This document shows, in pieces, positions 3,099-56,035 of a stretch of 60,263 nucleotides of DNA. A program made the position numbers and the translations under genes. The notes beneath the pieces were generated by a model. That model searched no databases. It had not been told where the DNA came from and saw only the letters and a program-made list of their open reading frames with translations. The stretch comes from Clostridia bacterium (GTDB lineage Bacteria > Bacillota > Clostridia > Christensenellales > Aristaeellaceae), in the NCBI GenBank assembly GCA_017434775.1, contig JAFSGG010000067.1, forward strand, positions 1-60,263. Reading direction: 5' to 3'. Numbering within the stretch: position 1 is the first letter of the stretch; each line of letters opens with the position of its first letter.

Positions 3099-3241
3099 AG
3101 GCAGTTTGCCAAAATGACCAAAGCAGCGGGATGCGCCGCCGGCACCGCGGAACGGCTTGCTTTTCTTTTTCGCAAGCCCCCTTCGTTTCATGACAACTCC
3201 CCGTTCATGAACACTTAACGCGCCGGCAGCTACTCTGCCTG
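3099..3241 (-). promoter_or_regulatory. Tetrahydrofolate (THF) riboswitch
   Basis: On the minus strand the folT leader carries the conserved THF-riboswitch blocks in order: GGCAGAGTAG (3239-3230), GCGTTAAGTG, GGGGAGTTGTC, ACGAAG, and the GCGGTGCC/CCGC segment. The outer helix is formed by AGGCAG near 3240 and CTGCCT at 3099-3104. No terminator with a U-run precedes folT. The folT Shine-Dalgarno AGGAGGC can pair with GCCTCTT at the 3' edge of the outer helix, which suggests translational control. The motif identification rests on recalled consensus; the translational mechanism is inferred. Confidence 0.88.
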
Positions 3242-50749: not shown

Positions 50750-51739
50750 TTACGATTCCGTTTTGCTTGAAAAGGTGGCAATCGAGACGCGGAGCACGGC
50801 AAAAAGCACACCGGCAACGGGCCACATCACCCAGCTGATATCCCAGGCGTTGCCAAGAAAGCTCCAGGTGAGAAAAACAGCGGTGGCGATCAGCCAGTAA
50901 CAGGTGCTGATGGCACCCATTTTATCACCGTTTTCCTTGTTTTTACGGCTGTAATCTCCTTCTTCCATTAGCTTTTCCATGGCGGCATTTTGCACACCGA
51001 CCCAAATGAGCATAAACACAGCAATGGCTGCCAGCAGGATGGTGATGCCAAGGAACAAAAGGGTGAGCATGTTGCTGTTTTCCGCTTCGGAGAAAGCGCC
51101 GCAAAGAAGGGGAATGGGGGAAAGGATCAGCAGGGAGACGGCAAAGATATTTCCTTTCAGGCTGGTATTGCGGAAAGCCTTTTGCTTCTCCTGTACCATG
51201 CCCCGCACGCCGTATTCCGTTTCAAAGGGTTCTTTTTCAAGGAAAGCAAAGGGTTCTGCCTGATGGCCGGTGTAGATAAACATCCCCACGGCAGCTGCTA
51301 CCATAATGAACATTAGCGCCAGGCTGCCCACAGCGGCCGTTTCCGCTTGCATGGAAAGGTAACCGAATTCCGTGGCACCGGTAAACAGGAACAGGGGGAT
51401 GACGCTGATCATGCACAAAACGGTAGCAATGGCAATGCGCAGAGCGGCGCTTTTGCGCAGGGCCAGGTATTCGTTGGCCTGGGCCAGGGTCACTTTGCGC
51501 AGGGCGGACGGAGCATCATTCCCTGTGTAGCTTTCGGTTTCCAGTTCATCTTTCAGCAGGTAATCCGTGGTGACACCAAAGAGCTGGGATAATTGCAGCA
51601 CCCGTTCCAGATCGGGCACGCTCTGGGCGCTTTCCCATTTGGAAACAGCCTGACGGGATACGTTCAACTGATGAGCCAGTTCTTCCTGACTCCAGCCCAT
51701 TTTTTTGCGCAGGGAGATAATTTTGTCGGCTAAGATCAT
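50750..51739 (-). CDS. XRE-family regulator with six-helix membrane domain
   Basis: The 329-residue protein starts with an XRE helix-turn-helix (about 5-60: MGWSQEELAHQLNVSRQAVSKWE is split as WSQEELAHQLNVS and RQAVSKWESAQSVP). Six hydrophobic segments follow from about residue 110 to the end. Membrane-bound XRE regulators of this kind are common in Firmicutes and may sense envelope or membrane states. GAGGTGAACC precedes the ATG. Target unknown. Confidence 0.88.
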   Translation of the reverse strand: MILADKIISLRKKMGWSQEELAHQLNVSRQAVSKWESAQSVPDLERVLQLSQLFGVTTDYLLKDELETESYTGNDAPSALRKVTLAQANEYLALRKSAALRIAIATVLCMISVIPLFLFTGATEFGYLSMQAETAAVGSLALMFIMVAAAVGMFIYTGHQAEPFAFLEKEPFETEYGVRGMVQEKQKAFRNTSLKGNIFAVSLLILSPIPLLCGAFSEAENSNMLTLLFLGITILLAAIAVFMLIWVGVQNAAMEKLMEEGDYSRKNKENGDKMGAISTCYWLIATAVFLTWSFLGNAWDISWVMWPVAGVLFAVLRVSIATFSSKTES

Positions 51740-51871: not shown

Positions 51872-51906
51872 AAAAAACGCCGCATTTTCCAAAGAAACGC
51901 GGCGTT
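51872..51906 (-). terminator. Terminator of the acyl ligase-ACP-AOS gene
   Basis: On the minus strand AACGCCGC/GCGGCGTT forms an 8-bp stem followed by TTTTC, a dozen nt past the stop. The remaining gap to the XRE gene (51740-51870) holds overlapping repeats of ACCGGT and GGTTGCA but no clear promoter. Confidence 0.85.
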
Positions 51907-51917
51907 TGACGTGGTTT

Positions 51918-54900
51918 TTACGCATCCATGGGGGGCAGATCAATGCCGGCTTCCTTGGCGCAGACCAGCAGAGCGTCCAATGCTTCCACGATCTGTTCGG
52001 GCTGATGTTCACTGATGACGCAGAAGCGGAGCCTGGCCTTGCCCTTGGGCACGGCGGGGTACACAGCCGGGGGCACGAACACGCCTTTGCTGCGCAGCAT
52101 ATTGGAAAGCAGGAAGGCATCTTCGTCGCTGCCCACCATGACGGGAACGATGGCGGTTTCGCCGGCCAGGCAGGTGTTCAGGTTGCGCTTGTGCGCTTCT
52201 TCCACGAAACACTTGATGTTGCGTTCCATGCGTTGCATGATGGAAGGATCGTTCCGCAAAAGGCGAATGGCGCAAAGGGAGGCGGCAGCCAGGGCGGGGC
52301 TCAGACCCACCGAGAACACAAAGCCGGGCAGGTTATAGCGCATATATTCGATGATTGCCTTGCTGCCGGCCAGGTATCCGCCGCAGGTGCCAAGGCCTTT
52401 GGACAGGGTGCCCATCTTGATATCGATATCTTTGCCGTCCAGGCCGAAGTATTCGTCCACGCCGCCGCCGGTTTTGCCGATAACGCAGGCGGAGTGAGCT
52501 TCGTCCACCATCAGGAAGCAGCCGTACTTTTTCTTGATTTCCACAAATTTCGGCACGGGGGCAATATCGCCGTCCATGGAATAGGCACCTTCAATGATGA
52601 TGAGGACTTTTGCGTACTTATGCCGCTGGGTGCGCAGGATGCCTTCCAGCGCTTCATAATCGTTATGGGGGAAGGGACGGCAGGTGGCCAGTGAAAGCTG
52701 GCAGCCCTGGGCTACGGAATTGTGGGCGATGGCATCGTAGAGGATCAGATCGCCCTTGCCGCAGAAATTGCCCACGCAGGTGACGTTGGTGGAATGGCCG
52801 CCCACCAGTACCAGTGCGGTTTCAGTGTGCTTCCAATCGGCAATTTCCTTTTCCAGTTCCTGGTGCAGGGTCTTTTCACCGGCAAGCAGGCGGCTGCCGG
52901 AAGCGGAGGTGCCGTACAGATCGATAGCGTGCTTGGCGGCTTCCTTGACTTCCGGACGGCCGGACATGCCCACATAGTTGTAGCTGCCGAAATTCAATAC
53001 ACGCTGGCCGGCCATATTGGAGGTATCCAGCAGGGGAGAATCATGGCAGACAAAGTAGGGGTTTTCCATGCCGCTGCCAAGCAAATCTTCCTGCCGCTTC
53101 TGGAAAGCAATGTATTCCGGGCTGTCTTCAAAGCGGGTGATGGGGGTGACGGGGCCGTCGTTTTCTTCTTTTTCTTCGGTGCCGCTCTGCTTTTTCAAAA
53201 GGAGGGCCGTCAGGTCATTGACGGTGGTGCAATTGCCGTATTCTTCCACGGGGATGAGGATGCCCATGGTTTCTTCCAGCTTCAGGCTCATGCCCAGTAC
53301 CTGCAGGCTGTCGCCGCCCAGCTCATCAATGAAGTGGGCGTCATCCCGGATTTCGGAAACGTCCATATCCAGGGTTTCGGCGTAAATGAGGCGCACCTGC
53401 TTTTTGATTTCTTCAGCCTGGGCACCGGCAGGCGCAGCAGGGATTTCGGCAGCTTTTACCTGTGCTTCCTGAATGACGGCGGAGGCCAGATCCACTTCCC
53501 GGAAAGCGATGGTATTTTCCGCAATGGCTTTTTTCAGGGCGGCGCGCTTGATTTTGATGCCGTTGGCATTGGGCAGCTGTTCGTTAGTGATCAGCACGCG
53601 GTTGAGGCGCTTGAGCGTGGGCAGGCCGGCGTTTACTTTCTTGATGCGGCCCAGCATGGGCTGGAGAGCTTCATCATTCTGCCAGTTTTTGCCGGCATTG
53701 ACGATGAGGGTGATATCCTCATACTGGCTGTTCTTATCCTTCAGGGAGGGGGTGCCCAGCACGGAAATCTGCTCCGCGCCGTCCAGAATGCCCAGAGCAC
53801 TTTCAATTTCATCCGGGTACACGTTTTCGCCGGATTCGTTGATGATGATATCCTTGGTGCGGCCTTCCACATACATGCGGTTGCCTTTTTTCAGGCGAAC
53901 CACGTCGCCGGTACGGTACCAGCCGTCGGCATCCAGGTCCGGCGGCAGCATTTTGCCGTCTACCAGACGGCCGGTGTGCACGGTATTGCCGCGGATGAAC
54001 ATTTCACCCACATTGGGGTCGTCGCCGGTGGGTTCCACCCGGTATTCGGCGCTGGACAAGGGACGGCCCACGGAACCGGAGGTGCGCTTGATGATGTTGT
54101 TGCCCGTTTCTACGCTGGTGATGCCGGTTTCCGTCATGCCAAAGCCGGATACCACATAATAGCCCAGGGCAGAAAGCGTGCGCATATATTTGGCGGGGGT
54201 ATGGCTGCCGCCCAGGATGATGCACTTGATATCCTTGCCCAGCAGCTGGGAAACCACATTGCGGAACATCACTTTCCGGGCCAGGCCAAGCCCCAGACGG
54301 GGATTCACCGTCTGCAGGGCGATGGAGGTACCCTTCATGGACTTGAAGGCAGCGCGCTTGAAGCGTTTTTCCTTGGCCACCTTTTTGTTCAGGGCCACGC
54401 TCAGATTATTGGCCAGCAGCGGCACGGCCAGAAGATGGGTCACATGGAAGCGGCGGGCCGTTTCCTGAATGGTTTTGGGGCTGCGATCCCGGAGATAGAC
54501 GTTTTCATAGCCGATGAAGTGGATCCACTGGATGCACACCATAAAGCCGAAAATGTGATGGAAGGGCAGGAAAGCCAGGTTCCGGTTGGGCTTATCGTTG
54601 ATGATGCGCTTATTGGAACGGTACAGAAGCTCGGAATTGAGCACCTGATTGCAGATGGCTGTTTCATTATAGACAAAAATGCGGCTGGTGGAGGTGGTGC
54701 CGGACGTGCACAGGGCCACCATGGTGCCAAAGACGGGACGGAAAGCCGGGGCAGCAGGGGCTGCTTTCATTTCGTCCAGGGTGATCTGGGTATAGCATTC
54801 GGGCAAAGCGCGCTTTTTGCCGCCGATGATGGCTGCAGCACCGGCCTGGCCCAGCATGTAAGCCGTCATTTCATCATTGAGGGCAAAATCCAGAAGCAGG

Positions 54901-55190
54901 GCCTGATGGCCGCTGGCGATGATCCCCCAGAAAACGCTGAACCAATCCGGGCAGGTATCCAGCTGCAGGGCAATGAACTTGCCTTCGCTTTCCACCGGCA
55001 GGATGCCATTGATATACTGTGCCATGGCCATGGCTCTTTCTTTATACTGGGCATAGGTGATGGCCTTTTCTTCATCGCCTTCCAGGTAACGGGCGGCTAC
55101 TTTATCGGGATTGGAGCAGATGATGGAAAACAGGTTTTCCAGCGTCATGTTCTGCTGCAGATTTTTGCTTCTTGCCAGAATTTCTTTCAT
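51918..55190 (-). CDS. Fused acyl-AMP ligase, acyl carrier protein and alpha-oxoamine synthase
   Basis: The 1090-residue cytoplasmic protein has three parts. Residues 1-570 form an adenylate-forming ligase with TSGTT (162-166), GMTETG (351-356), YRTGDVV (425-431), GRTKDII (443-449) and a catalytic lysine in GIKIKR (about 546). Residues 595-670 form an ACP with GGDSLQ, Ser628 being the phosphopantetheine site. Residues 690-1090 form an alpha-oxoamine synthase with YDAIAHNS (His823), VDEAHSACVIG (Asp896, His899) and PLP lysine TLSKGLG (Lys931). The likely chemistry is fatty acid activation, loading on the ACP, and decarboxylative condensation with an amino acid to a 2-amino-3-ketone. The reductase gene upstream overlaps by 4 nt. 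It could also be a 7-keto-8-aminononanoate-like enzyme, but the fused ligase and ACP argue for lipid synthesis. Confidence 0.88.
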   Translation of the reverse strand: MKEILARSKNLQQNMTLENLFSIICSNPDKVAARYLEGDEEKAITYAQYKERAMAMAQYINGILPVESEGKFIALQLDTCPDWFSVFWGIIASGHQALLLDFALNDEMTAYMLGQAGAAAIIGGKKRALPECYTQITLDEMKAAPAAPAFRPVFGTMVALCTSGTTSTSRIFVYNETAICNQVLNSELLYRSNKRIINDKPNRNLAFLPFHHIFGFMVCIQWIHFIGYENVYLRDRSPKTIQETARRFHVTHLLAVPLLANNLSVALNKKVAKEKRFKRAAFKSMKGTSIALQTVNPRLGLGLARKVMFRNVVSQLLGKDIKCIILGGSHTPAKYMRTLSALGYYVVSGFGMTETGITSVETGNNIIKRTSGSVGRPLSSAEYRVEPTGDDPNVGEMFIRGNTVHTGRLVDGKMLPPDLDADGWYRTGDVVRLKKGNRMYVEGRTKDIIINESGENVYPDEIESALGILDGAEQISVLGTPSLKDKNSQYEDITLIVNAGKNWQNDEALQPMLGRIKKVNAGLPTLKRLNRVLITNEQLPNANGIKIKRAALKKAIAENTIAFREVDLASAVIQEAQVKAAEIPAAPAGAQAEEIKKQVRLIYAETLDMDVSEIRDDAHFIDELGGDSLQVLGMSLKLEETMGILIPVEEYGNCTTVNDLTALLLKKQSGTEEKEENDGPVTPITRFEDSPEYIAFQKRQEDLLGSGMENPYFVCHDSPLLDTSNMAGQRVLNFGSYNYVGMSGRPEVKEAAKHAIDLYGTSASGSRLLAGEKTLHQELEKEIADWKHTETALVLVGGHSTNVTCVGNFCGKGDLILYDAIAHNSVAQGCQLSLATCRPFPHNDYEALEGILRTQRHKYAKVLIIIEGAYSMDGDIAPVPKFVEIKKKYGCFLMVDEAHSACVIGKTGGGVDEYFGLDGKDIDIKMGTLSKGLGTCGGYLAGSKAIIEYMRYNLPGFVFSVGLSPALAAASLCAIRLLRNDPSIMQRMERNIKCFVEEAHKRNLNTCLAGETAIVPVMVGSDEDAFLLSNMLRSKGVFVPPAVYPAVPKGKARLRFCVISEHQPEQIVEALDALLVCAKEAGIDLPPMDA

Positions 55191-56035
55191 AAAACAGTCC
55201 CCTTTTCTGATTGATCAGGTTTTGTCTTTTTGCTGTAGTAAGATGCAATAAAGACGGAAAACAGCCGCACAGGCAGCACATCGTGCAGGATGACTGCCAT
55301 GTGCTGATCCCACTTGGCAATGCACAGCCGGCAGGGCAGGCGCTTTTTTTGCAGCGCATTTGCTACCTTCCGGCCCAGCCTGGCAGGATCGCTTCCGTTT
55401 TTTTCATCATGGTCAATGACAGCCGTTCCCCTCTGATAGGCTTTCCAATAGGGGGATTGGGGCGTCATCTGTTTTCCGTGGCGGCGGTAGAGGCTGCTGC
55501 CGGAGCGGTGATCCCCGGGTTCCACCGTCATCACTTCAATGCCGAAGGGCTTCACTTCCATCCGCAGGCATTCCAGATACCCTTCGATGGCGTGCTTGCT
55601 GGCGGTATAGGCGCCCTCAAAGGGAATGCCAAGCAAACCGTTGATGGAGGAAAAGGCCACCAGTTTTCCTTTTCCTTTTTCCCGCATCAGGGGCAGCACC
55701 TGCCGTACCATTCGGGTAAGGCCGAAGAAATTGGTTTCCATCACCAGACGGATTTCATCGTCGGTGTAGCTTTCGCAGGCCCCCAGGTTCAATACCCCGG
55801 CTGCGTGGATCAGCACGTCCGGAACGCCGGTCATCTGAAGGGCCTTTTTCACAAAGGCACTTACGCTTTCATCGCTGGTCACATCCAGGGGCAGGCAGCG
55901 GTCATCCGTGCAGTTTTCCGGCTTTGCAAAGGAACGGGCGCCGGCTACTACCGTGAAGCCGTTTTGCCGCAGGGCATTGGCAGTATGCAGGCCCAGACCG
56001 CTGGATGCGCCTGTAATCCACACACATTTTCCCAT
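55187..56035 (-). CDS. Short-chain dehydrogenase/reductase partner of the fusion
   Basis: The 282-residue SDR has TGASSGLG (about 8-15), the NAG-like site AAGVLNLGA, catalytic Ser in AFSSINGLLG, and Tyr-x3-Lys in GAYTASKHAIEG. A C-terminal extension (RLFSVFIASYYSKK) resembles the membrane-associating tail of retinol-dehydrogenase and 3-ketosphinganine-reductase-like enzymes. It is transcribed first, and its stop overlaps the fusion start by 4 nt. It is well placed to reduce the 2-amino-3-ketone to an amino alcohol (sphingoid-type base). The exact substrate is inferred from context. Confidence 0.9.
   Translation of the reverse strand: MGKCVWITGASSGLGLHTANALRQNGFTVVAGARSFAKPENCTDDRCLPLDVTSDESVSAFVKKALQMTGVPDVLIHAAGVLNLGACESYTDDEIRLVMETNFFGLTRMVRQVLPLMREKGKGKLVAFSSINGLLGIPFEGAYTASKHAIEGYLECLRMEVKPFGIEVMTVEPGDHRSGSSLYRRHGKQMTPQSPYWKAYQRGTAVIDHDEKNGSDPARLGRKVANALQKKRLPCRLCIAKWDQHMAVILHDVLPVRLFSVFIASYYSKKTKPDQSEKGTVL

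Follow-up and report, generated by a model that had tools for sequence, protein, structure and literature searches.

What would a clostridial bacterium make with a single polypeptide that joins a putative acyl-AMP ligase, an acyl carrier protein (ACP) and an alpha-oxoamine synthase (AOS), and that is encoded beside a short-chain dehydrogenase/reductase (SDR)? The question is raised by a two-gene locus on contig JAFSGG010000067.1 of a Clostridia bacterium of the family Aristaeellaceae (assembly GCA_017434775.1), positions 1 to 60,263 of which are the window. The operon probably makes a sphingoid base: its sequences suggest a fused acyl-ACP synthetase, ACP and serine palmitoyltransferase (SPT) that would yield 3-ketosphinganine, which the SDR would then reduce. 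The individual activities are already known; their arrangement on one chain in Clostridia is the new part.

An earlier note on this DNA had described a 1090-residue ligase/ACP/AOS protein with an attachment site at Ser628 and a catalytic Lys931, translationally coupled to an SDR. Its positions and domains are borne out by open reading frames (ORFs), motifs and Pfam, which places AMP-binding at residues 27-406, PP-binding at 598-664 and Aminotran_1_2 at 731-1074; Ser628 lies within GGDSLQ and Lys931 within GTLSK. The coupling was also seen, as the stop codon of the SDR gene (Pfam domain adh_short) and the start codon of the fusion gene overlap in ATGA. In the proposed pathway, the ligase domain would adenylate a free long-chain fatty acid and move the acyl group to the phosphopantetheine arm on Ser628; the AOS domain, with pyridoxal phosphate (PLP) bound at Lys931, would carry out a decarboxylating condensation of the acyl-ACP thioester and an amino acid, L-serine being the most likely; the product would be 3-ketosphinganine or an analogue, and the SDR would reduce its 3-ketone to give sphinganine. 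The fatty-acid substrate, the use of serine, the identity of the reduction and the final lipid are predictions. The one-chain protein may have originated by the joining of a clostridial ligase-ACP to a polyketide-type AOS.

Kinship of the AOS domain was assessed with two trees. The first, of 56 rows, contained 18 fusion rows (the window, 14 loci and L098-L100, a subset of the fetched fusions) and three solo AOS proteins; the fusion clade had support of 100/99, and its sister group consists of eight polyketide synthase-linked AOS proteins (joint branch 100/99). The Bacteroidetes and Sphingomonas SPTs and many clostridial AOS proteins form another clade (99/97), outside of which the fusion AOS falls, and KBL, BioF and ALAS are separated from the fusion AOS by a 100/99 branch. 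The second tree, to which seven rows were added and from which nine of the resulting 63 were dropped (five fusion rows, ALAS and three clostridial AOS), agrees with the first. Approximately unbiased (AU) tests rejected topologies in which the fusion AOS was held with KBL/BioF (p-AU 0.00036) or with E. coli BioF alone (p-AU 0.00055). The fusion AOS is 40-46% identical to six polyketide-linked rows, 32-39% to the SPT group and 26-36% to KBL/BioF, percentages that alone would not settle the family. Nor is the answer as clear from NCBIfam models as from the tree, since all matches are below cut-off (BioF 343 bits, TIGR01825 307, Bacteroidetes SPT 302, KBL 293; the SPT equivalog NF047600 has a cut-off of 640 bits), and a higher score for BioF than for SPT is also seen in polyketide-linked AOSs. 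By phylogeny the fusion AOS is not BioF.

The polyketide-linked relatives come from Planktothrix, Paraburkholderia, Pseudomonas, Streptomyces, Shinella, Sinorhizobium and Caballeronia, the Sinorhizobium gene set being presumably rkpA-rkpG-rkpH, judged by gene order; one more is found in a polyketide synthase-AOS pair of the Clostridia genome G423. No polyketide synthase gene or module was present among the fusion neighbours tested, and a ligase-ACP stands in its place. At L095:1572-9550, in a Clostridia genome, a polyketide synthase (KS, AT, DH, KR, ACP and a weak ER-like match) adjoins a polyketide-type AOS, an sga-like pair outside the Proteobacteria that has no adjoining SDR.

According to PMC9304779, the residues on which SPT catalysis depends are Lys, His, Arg and either Asn or Tyr, and K931, H823, R1055 and Y737 of the window align at these positions. 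Tyr737 is shared with the SPT of S. paucimobilis, the polyketide-linked rows and one Streptomyces row. The motif HNS replaces HAS/HMS solely in fusion and polyketide-linked rows among the 25 aligned rows shown, Streptomyces anthocyanicus having HDS. The lysine that marks cysteate use in SulA, 30 residues past the PLP lysine, is absent, with Val961 at this position in the window. An assayed polyketide-fed AOS of SPT activity, PfSgaB, prefers L-serine virtually exclusively over alanine and glycine (PMC12134224), and by its architecture PfSgaB would be a member of the polyketide-linked clade.

The fusion is widespread in the window's genus. In a set of 60 related genomes that includes the window's own and 28 others of its genus, a full-length open fusion frame was found in 28 and pieces in four more (G009, G013, G016 and G040), the pieces of G009, G013 and G040, in which this was checked, being at contig edges. 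Within the genus, 25 of 29 genomes have the full fusion and three have pieces, leaving G003 without it; the full fusions beyond the genus are in G032, G034 and G035, from three other genera, and G031 carries the AOS part alone. In a class-wide survey of 391 genomes (E <= 1e-60, at most two candidates scored per genome), the window's own genome gave the sole whole-fusion match, and the remaining matches listed were to the ligase or ligase-ACP alone or to the AOS alone. A scan of named genome contigs gave 23 fusion-related loci, with both ligase and AOS matched in 20 (L024-L038, L040-L044), among them L037, in which residues 1-44 are missing; of the other three, L039 is truncated, and in L045 and L046 the match is confined to the AOS. 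Of these 23, 11 are titled as coming from a gut site of goat, sheep or water buffalo, and no host appears in the titles of the other 12. In an alignment of 21 proteins (the window and 20 of the 23 loci, L037, L045 and L046 being left out), the ligase loop TSGTT, K546 and Ser628 are invariant, and Lys931 is kept in every row that reaches it, one row ending earlier. Both genes are confirmed as real and conserved, and the possibility of an assembly artefact or chance ORF was rejected on the presence of the fusion in many separate genomes. Three stand-alone AOS genes (L097:5865-7112, L045:1588-2829 and L046:6001-7224), 69-73% identical to the fusion AOS, nest inside the fusion clade and may have lost the ligase-ACP or never gained it.

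The best NCBIfam family of the SDR is the 3-ketosphinganine (3-ketodihydrosphingosine) reductase KdsR (NF049977, 225 bits). Its Ser129, Ser130, Tyr143 and Lys147 are invariant in 12 aligned rows; the Ser-Tyr-Lys and GxxxGxG features present are general to SDRs. An ortholog with 51-75% identity is found in 31 of the 60 relatives, all of them among the 32 with the fusion or its pieces (0 of the 28 others), and in all 15 further named fusion genomes, which brings the total to 46 of the 47 that carry the fusion or parts of it; G457 and G465 were not counted separately because their coordinates are identical to those of G021 and G020. No such ortholog was seen in G423 or G182, near-complete Clostridia genomes that carry other AOS genes (best E 1.7e-16). 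Among the relatives, the Fisher test of co-occurrence gives 2.8e-16 by genome and 1.4e-4 by genus, values that are descriptive only because genomes share descent. The fusion-SDR pairing that the earlier note proposed to survey in Clostridia holds as co-occurrence, mostly without adjacency: the two genes are next to each other in L028, L039 and the lineage of the window, but lie apart in G032, G034, G035 and 13 of the 15 further genomes, in one of which, G464, they are about 40 kb from each other on the same contig. Since they are mostly unlinked outside the window's lineage, linkage does not explain their joint retention. This co-occurrence, together with the kinship to polyketide-fed AOS enzymes, supports a sphingoid-base unit, as the earlier note had suggested.

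In the rumen lineage, where the SDR gene is unlinked, a phosphodiester-glycosidase-like gene comes after it (L127:6747-8617, L128:6501-8308, L130:7074-8921 and L131:5847-8655), assigned to PF09992 by Pfam in L127 and L131 and by similarity in L128 and L130. The two genes overlap in three of the four loci, and the second product might act on a lipid head group.

Outside the fusions, clostridial ligases and ligase-ACP proteins share 30-40% identity with the window ligase. Two ligase-ACP homologs, in G275 and G136, are located with fatty-acid-kinase-like, major facilitator superfamily (MFS) and PlsC-like acyltransferase genes, a neighbourhood that points to long-chain fatty acids as the putative substrate. 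The ACP serine and the ligase lysine are both present, and the window protein may act as an acyl-ACP synthetase. Gene runs with fatty-acid-kinase-like, MFS, ligase-ACP and PlsC-like members in other Clostridia (L096:2705-9255, L104:2879-9517) are reminiscent of a lysophospholipid recycling set. The ligase tree is weak at its base, and in it the fusion ligase of G032 (L098) groups with the ligase-ACP of G055 (82/91); one fusion event and several are therefore indistinguishable. That fusion, L098:5711-8944, is the most distant (42% identical) and hints at a second fusion event or a domain swap.

Ten of the 60 relatives have an SPT-like AOS (503-561 bits to the Bacteroidetes SPT model NF047600, cut-off 640); all ten fall in the SPT clade of the second tree, and the fusion was found in none of these genomes. 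Conversely, the SPT-like gene is absent from the 32 relatives and the 15 further genomes with the fusion, where other AOS matches reach at most 332 bits. With 31 fusion genomes counted, Fisher p for this exclusion is 0.0003 by genome and 0.28 by genus; the latter value makes it a pattern rather than a proof that the fusion takes the place of the Bacteroidetes-like SPT of neighbouring genera, and incomplete genomes weaken it further. An SDR gene adjoins the SPT-like AOS gene in five of the ten (G029, G033, G038, G044 and G045). These pairs (L134:397-2354, L135:7183-9152, L139:1-2026, L140:2994-5238 and L141:8030-10002), in the same family or order as the window, overlap in at least three cases (L134, L135 and L140) and are candidate canonical sphingoid-base operons. 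A broader proposal is that the fusion has replaced canonical SPT as the core sphingoid-base synthase in uncultured gut Clostridia, many of them from ruminants, that it would turn free (dietary or host-derived) fatty acid directly into 3-ketosphinganine, and that this lineage, which belongs to a Gram-positive class, would feed a hidden sphingolipid pool in rumen and hindgut; it is advanced tentatively, its chances being a little short of even.

Of known systems, PfSgaA/SgaB/SgaC of Pseudomonas fluorescens MYb115 shares with the locus an AOS of the polyketide-linked kind acting on a carrier-bound chain and a KDSR-like SDR partner (PMC12134224). In the Sga system an iterative polyketide synthase makes the chain, whereas the window ligase would load a ready-made fatty acid, and only in the window are ligase, carrier and AOS joined in a single polypeptide. 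Between the window SDR and three SDRs of other polyketide/AOS loci, identity is only 31-32%. The donor that Caulobacter SPT prefers is an acyl-ACP whose carrier and loading synthetase are both dedicated ones (PMC9386255), and the AasR, AcpR and SPT of Caulobacter and rhodobacteria follow the same logic from free fatty acid through dedicated ACP to 3-ketosphinganine, with three separate proteins rather than one chain. The likeness to Caulobacter drawn in the earlier note stands for this logic, but the closest AOS kin are polyketide-linked enzymes and not Caulobacter SPT; as for the ketoreductase, the ketone in Caulobacter is reduced after N-acylation by CerR, and the KdsR-like SDR of the window resembles the Bacteroides and Sga routes more.

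The Bacteroidetes SPT with KdsR (BT_0972) and the clostridial SPT-like/SDR pairs are expected to carry out the same two reactions, with an SDR of the same best-matching family, but their SPT is a stand-alone enzyme of another AOS clade with no fused ligase or carrier. In Planktothrix (polyketide synthase-AOS) and Streptomyces anthocyanicus (KS-AT-ACP-AOS), an ACP precedes an AOS on one chain as in the window; such fusions have no adenylating ligase, their acyl chain or starter coming from synthase modules. PigH and SxtA are further carrier-AOS fusions in polyketide synthases. The Oaa fatty acid amide pathway of Coprococcus eutactus likewise has a ligase and an ACP of gut Clostridia acting on free fatty acids (PMC13142362), but with a condensation domain, an amide product and separate proteins, a likeness taken from its description. 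Among the literature matches listed, with subscription journals thinly covered, none dealt with a ligase-ACP-AOS fusion or with SPT in Clostridia, and the main text of PMC12134224 mentions neither Clostridi-, Firmicutes nor Bacillota.

Several observations weigh against synthesis of a sphingoid base. Enzyme roles and lipid product are predictions from gene sequences. The AOS domain scores higher with the BioF model (343 bits) than with the SPT model (302 bits), both below cut-off; its K931, H823 and R1055 also occur in the aligned KBL, BioF and ALAS rows, and therefore indicate a working AOS and not SPT specifically; the position that is Ala in SPT is Val961; and the AOS tree does not contain the sequences of PfSgaB, Caulobacter SPT or SulA. 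In the ligase loop the usual PK is missing, and in the window a Ser takes the place of the consensus Gly. The SDR, at 225 bits, is below the KdsR cut-off of 400; G040 (51% complete) has fusion pieces and bioB over cut-off but no SDR, and the solo-AOS genomes G031 and G451 also lack the SDR, which G452 has. The counts lack independence, a single genus supplying 28 of the 32 relatives that carry the fusion or parts of it, and many surveyed genomes are incomplete. No ceramide synthase or head-group gene was identified. The claim of the earlier note that the unit is self-contained could hold only as far as the amino alcohol; no N-acyltransferase was identified either, though none was sought with a model.

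The same machinery might use another amino acid (alanine, glycine or another) and make 1-deoxy-sphingoid bases or other 2-amino-3-hydroxy lipids, a variant that is unlikely but the most plausible of the alternatives. The kept residues do not reveal the choice, and Val961 stands where SPT has Ala, but the assayed polyketide-fed enzyme prefers serine virtually exclusively, and the missing SulA lysine speaks against cysteate. It is improbable that the product is not a membrane lipid but a secondary metabolite or an anchor at the cell surface, an aminoketone or amino alcohol being exported or anchoring a surface polymer, as may hold for capsule-linked polyketide/AOS clusters. Sister AOS genes lie near capsule or polysaccharide genes in L053, L055, L056 and L058, the sga sphingolipids are termed secondary metabolites in the abstract of PMC12134224, and the phosphodiester-glycosidase-like gene after the rumen-lineage SDR would fit such a role; on the other side, five neighbours of the locus tested with Pfam include no capsule, export or glycosyltransferase gene, and presence of the fusion or its pieces in 28 of 29 genomes of the genus is like that of a core trait.

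Slightly less probable again is a short non-ribosomal route, in which the adenylating domain would load an amino acid or aryl acid and the product would be a small aminoketone or resemble a pyrrole. In its favour are the breadth of the adenylation superfamily and the low identity, 23-28%, of the ligase to its 12 best plasmid matches. Against it, the nearest kin of the ligase are clostridial ligase and ligase-ACP genes, of which two have fatty-acid-kinase-like and PlsC-like neighbours, and the five tested neighbours of the window locus include no condensation or synthetase gene. The least probable alternative, biotin synthesis by a fused pimeloyl ligase, ACP and KAPA synthase, is largely refuted. 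BioF is the best NCBIfam match of the AOS part, albeit below cut-off, and G040 has bioB; but the AOS does not fall inside BioF in a biotin gene context, a finding that the earlier note would have counted against its own proposal: both trees and AU tests place it elsewhere, and bioB was over cut-off in none of the 29 same-genus genomes and in two of the 60 relatives, G040 being one of the two (bioA and bioD were not searched). Biotin synthesis also has no place for an SDR partner. Other candidates were rejected: a cysteate/sulfonolipid synthase, for want of the diagnostic SulA lysine; a CAI-1/hydroxyketone autoinducer synthase, whose model gives 151 bits where BioF gives 343 and SPT 302; and fatty acid amide synthesis, with no condensation gene among the five neighbours tested. 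Synthesis of a sphingoid base from fatty acid and serine remains the favoured interpretation of the locus.

The features of the locus are collected in Table 1. The stem-loop and T-run just past the fusion stop probably mark the end of the operon; the hairpin (-18.5 kcal/mol, 14 pairs and a bulge, z -3.9) was matched by none of 200 shuffles. Neither it nor the promoter read by eye was listed by a consensus scan, the promoter because its first hexamer matches at only three of six positions.

Table 1. Features of the fusion/SDR locus, with positions in the window
Feature	Positions	Strand	Basis
Fusion gene, acyl-AMP ligase/ACP/AOS, 1090 aa	51918..55190	-	ORF and Pfam
Ligase part, about residues 1-560; TSGTTSTSRIF at 162-172, late lysine K546	53511..55190	-	Pfam, alignment
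ACP domain, residues 598-664, phosphopantetheine serine Ser628	53199..53399	-	Pfam PP-binding
AOS domain, about residues 690-1090: Tyr737, His823, Lys931, Val961, Arg1055	51921..53123	-	Pfam, alignment, trees
SDR gene, candidate 3-ketosphinganine reductase, 282 aa; TGASSGLG, Ser129/Ser130, Tyr143, Lys147	55187..56035	-	NCBIfam, alignment
Putative promoter TTGCAT-17-TATAAT, upstream of SDR	56097-56069	-	Read by eye from sequence
Ribosome site GGAGGGG, upstream of SDR	56047-56041	-	Read by eye
Probable intrinsic terminator of the two-gene operon, GC-rich hairpin then T-run	51872..51907	-	RNA fold

Downstream of the fusion gene is a gene for an HTH_3 protein (50750-51739), and upstream of the SDR gene are a divergent RlmI-like methyltransferase gene and then O-acetylhomoserine (OAH)-sulfhydrylase-like and MetA genes. 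None of the five window neighbours given the Pfam test is a lipid-pathway gene, and no lipid gene common across lineages was found among the neighbours tested outside the fusion/SDR pair. Elsewhere in the window, a tetrahydrofolate (THF) riboswitch (RF01831, 78 bits) is located at 3122-3239 on the minus strand.

Gut bacterial sphingolipids have been credited mainly to Bacteroidetes, and Clostridia are a group not known for them. If the proposed pathway is true, a conserved one-chain unit that leads from fatty acid to sphingoid base in Clostridia would be a second source of these lipids in the gut, drawing on free fatty acids, and would offer a compact enzyme for making sphingoid bases. The finding of an SPT-like gene or a fusion, but never both, in the genomes searched suggests that the trait matters enough to these bacteria to be kept by different enzymes.

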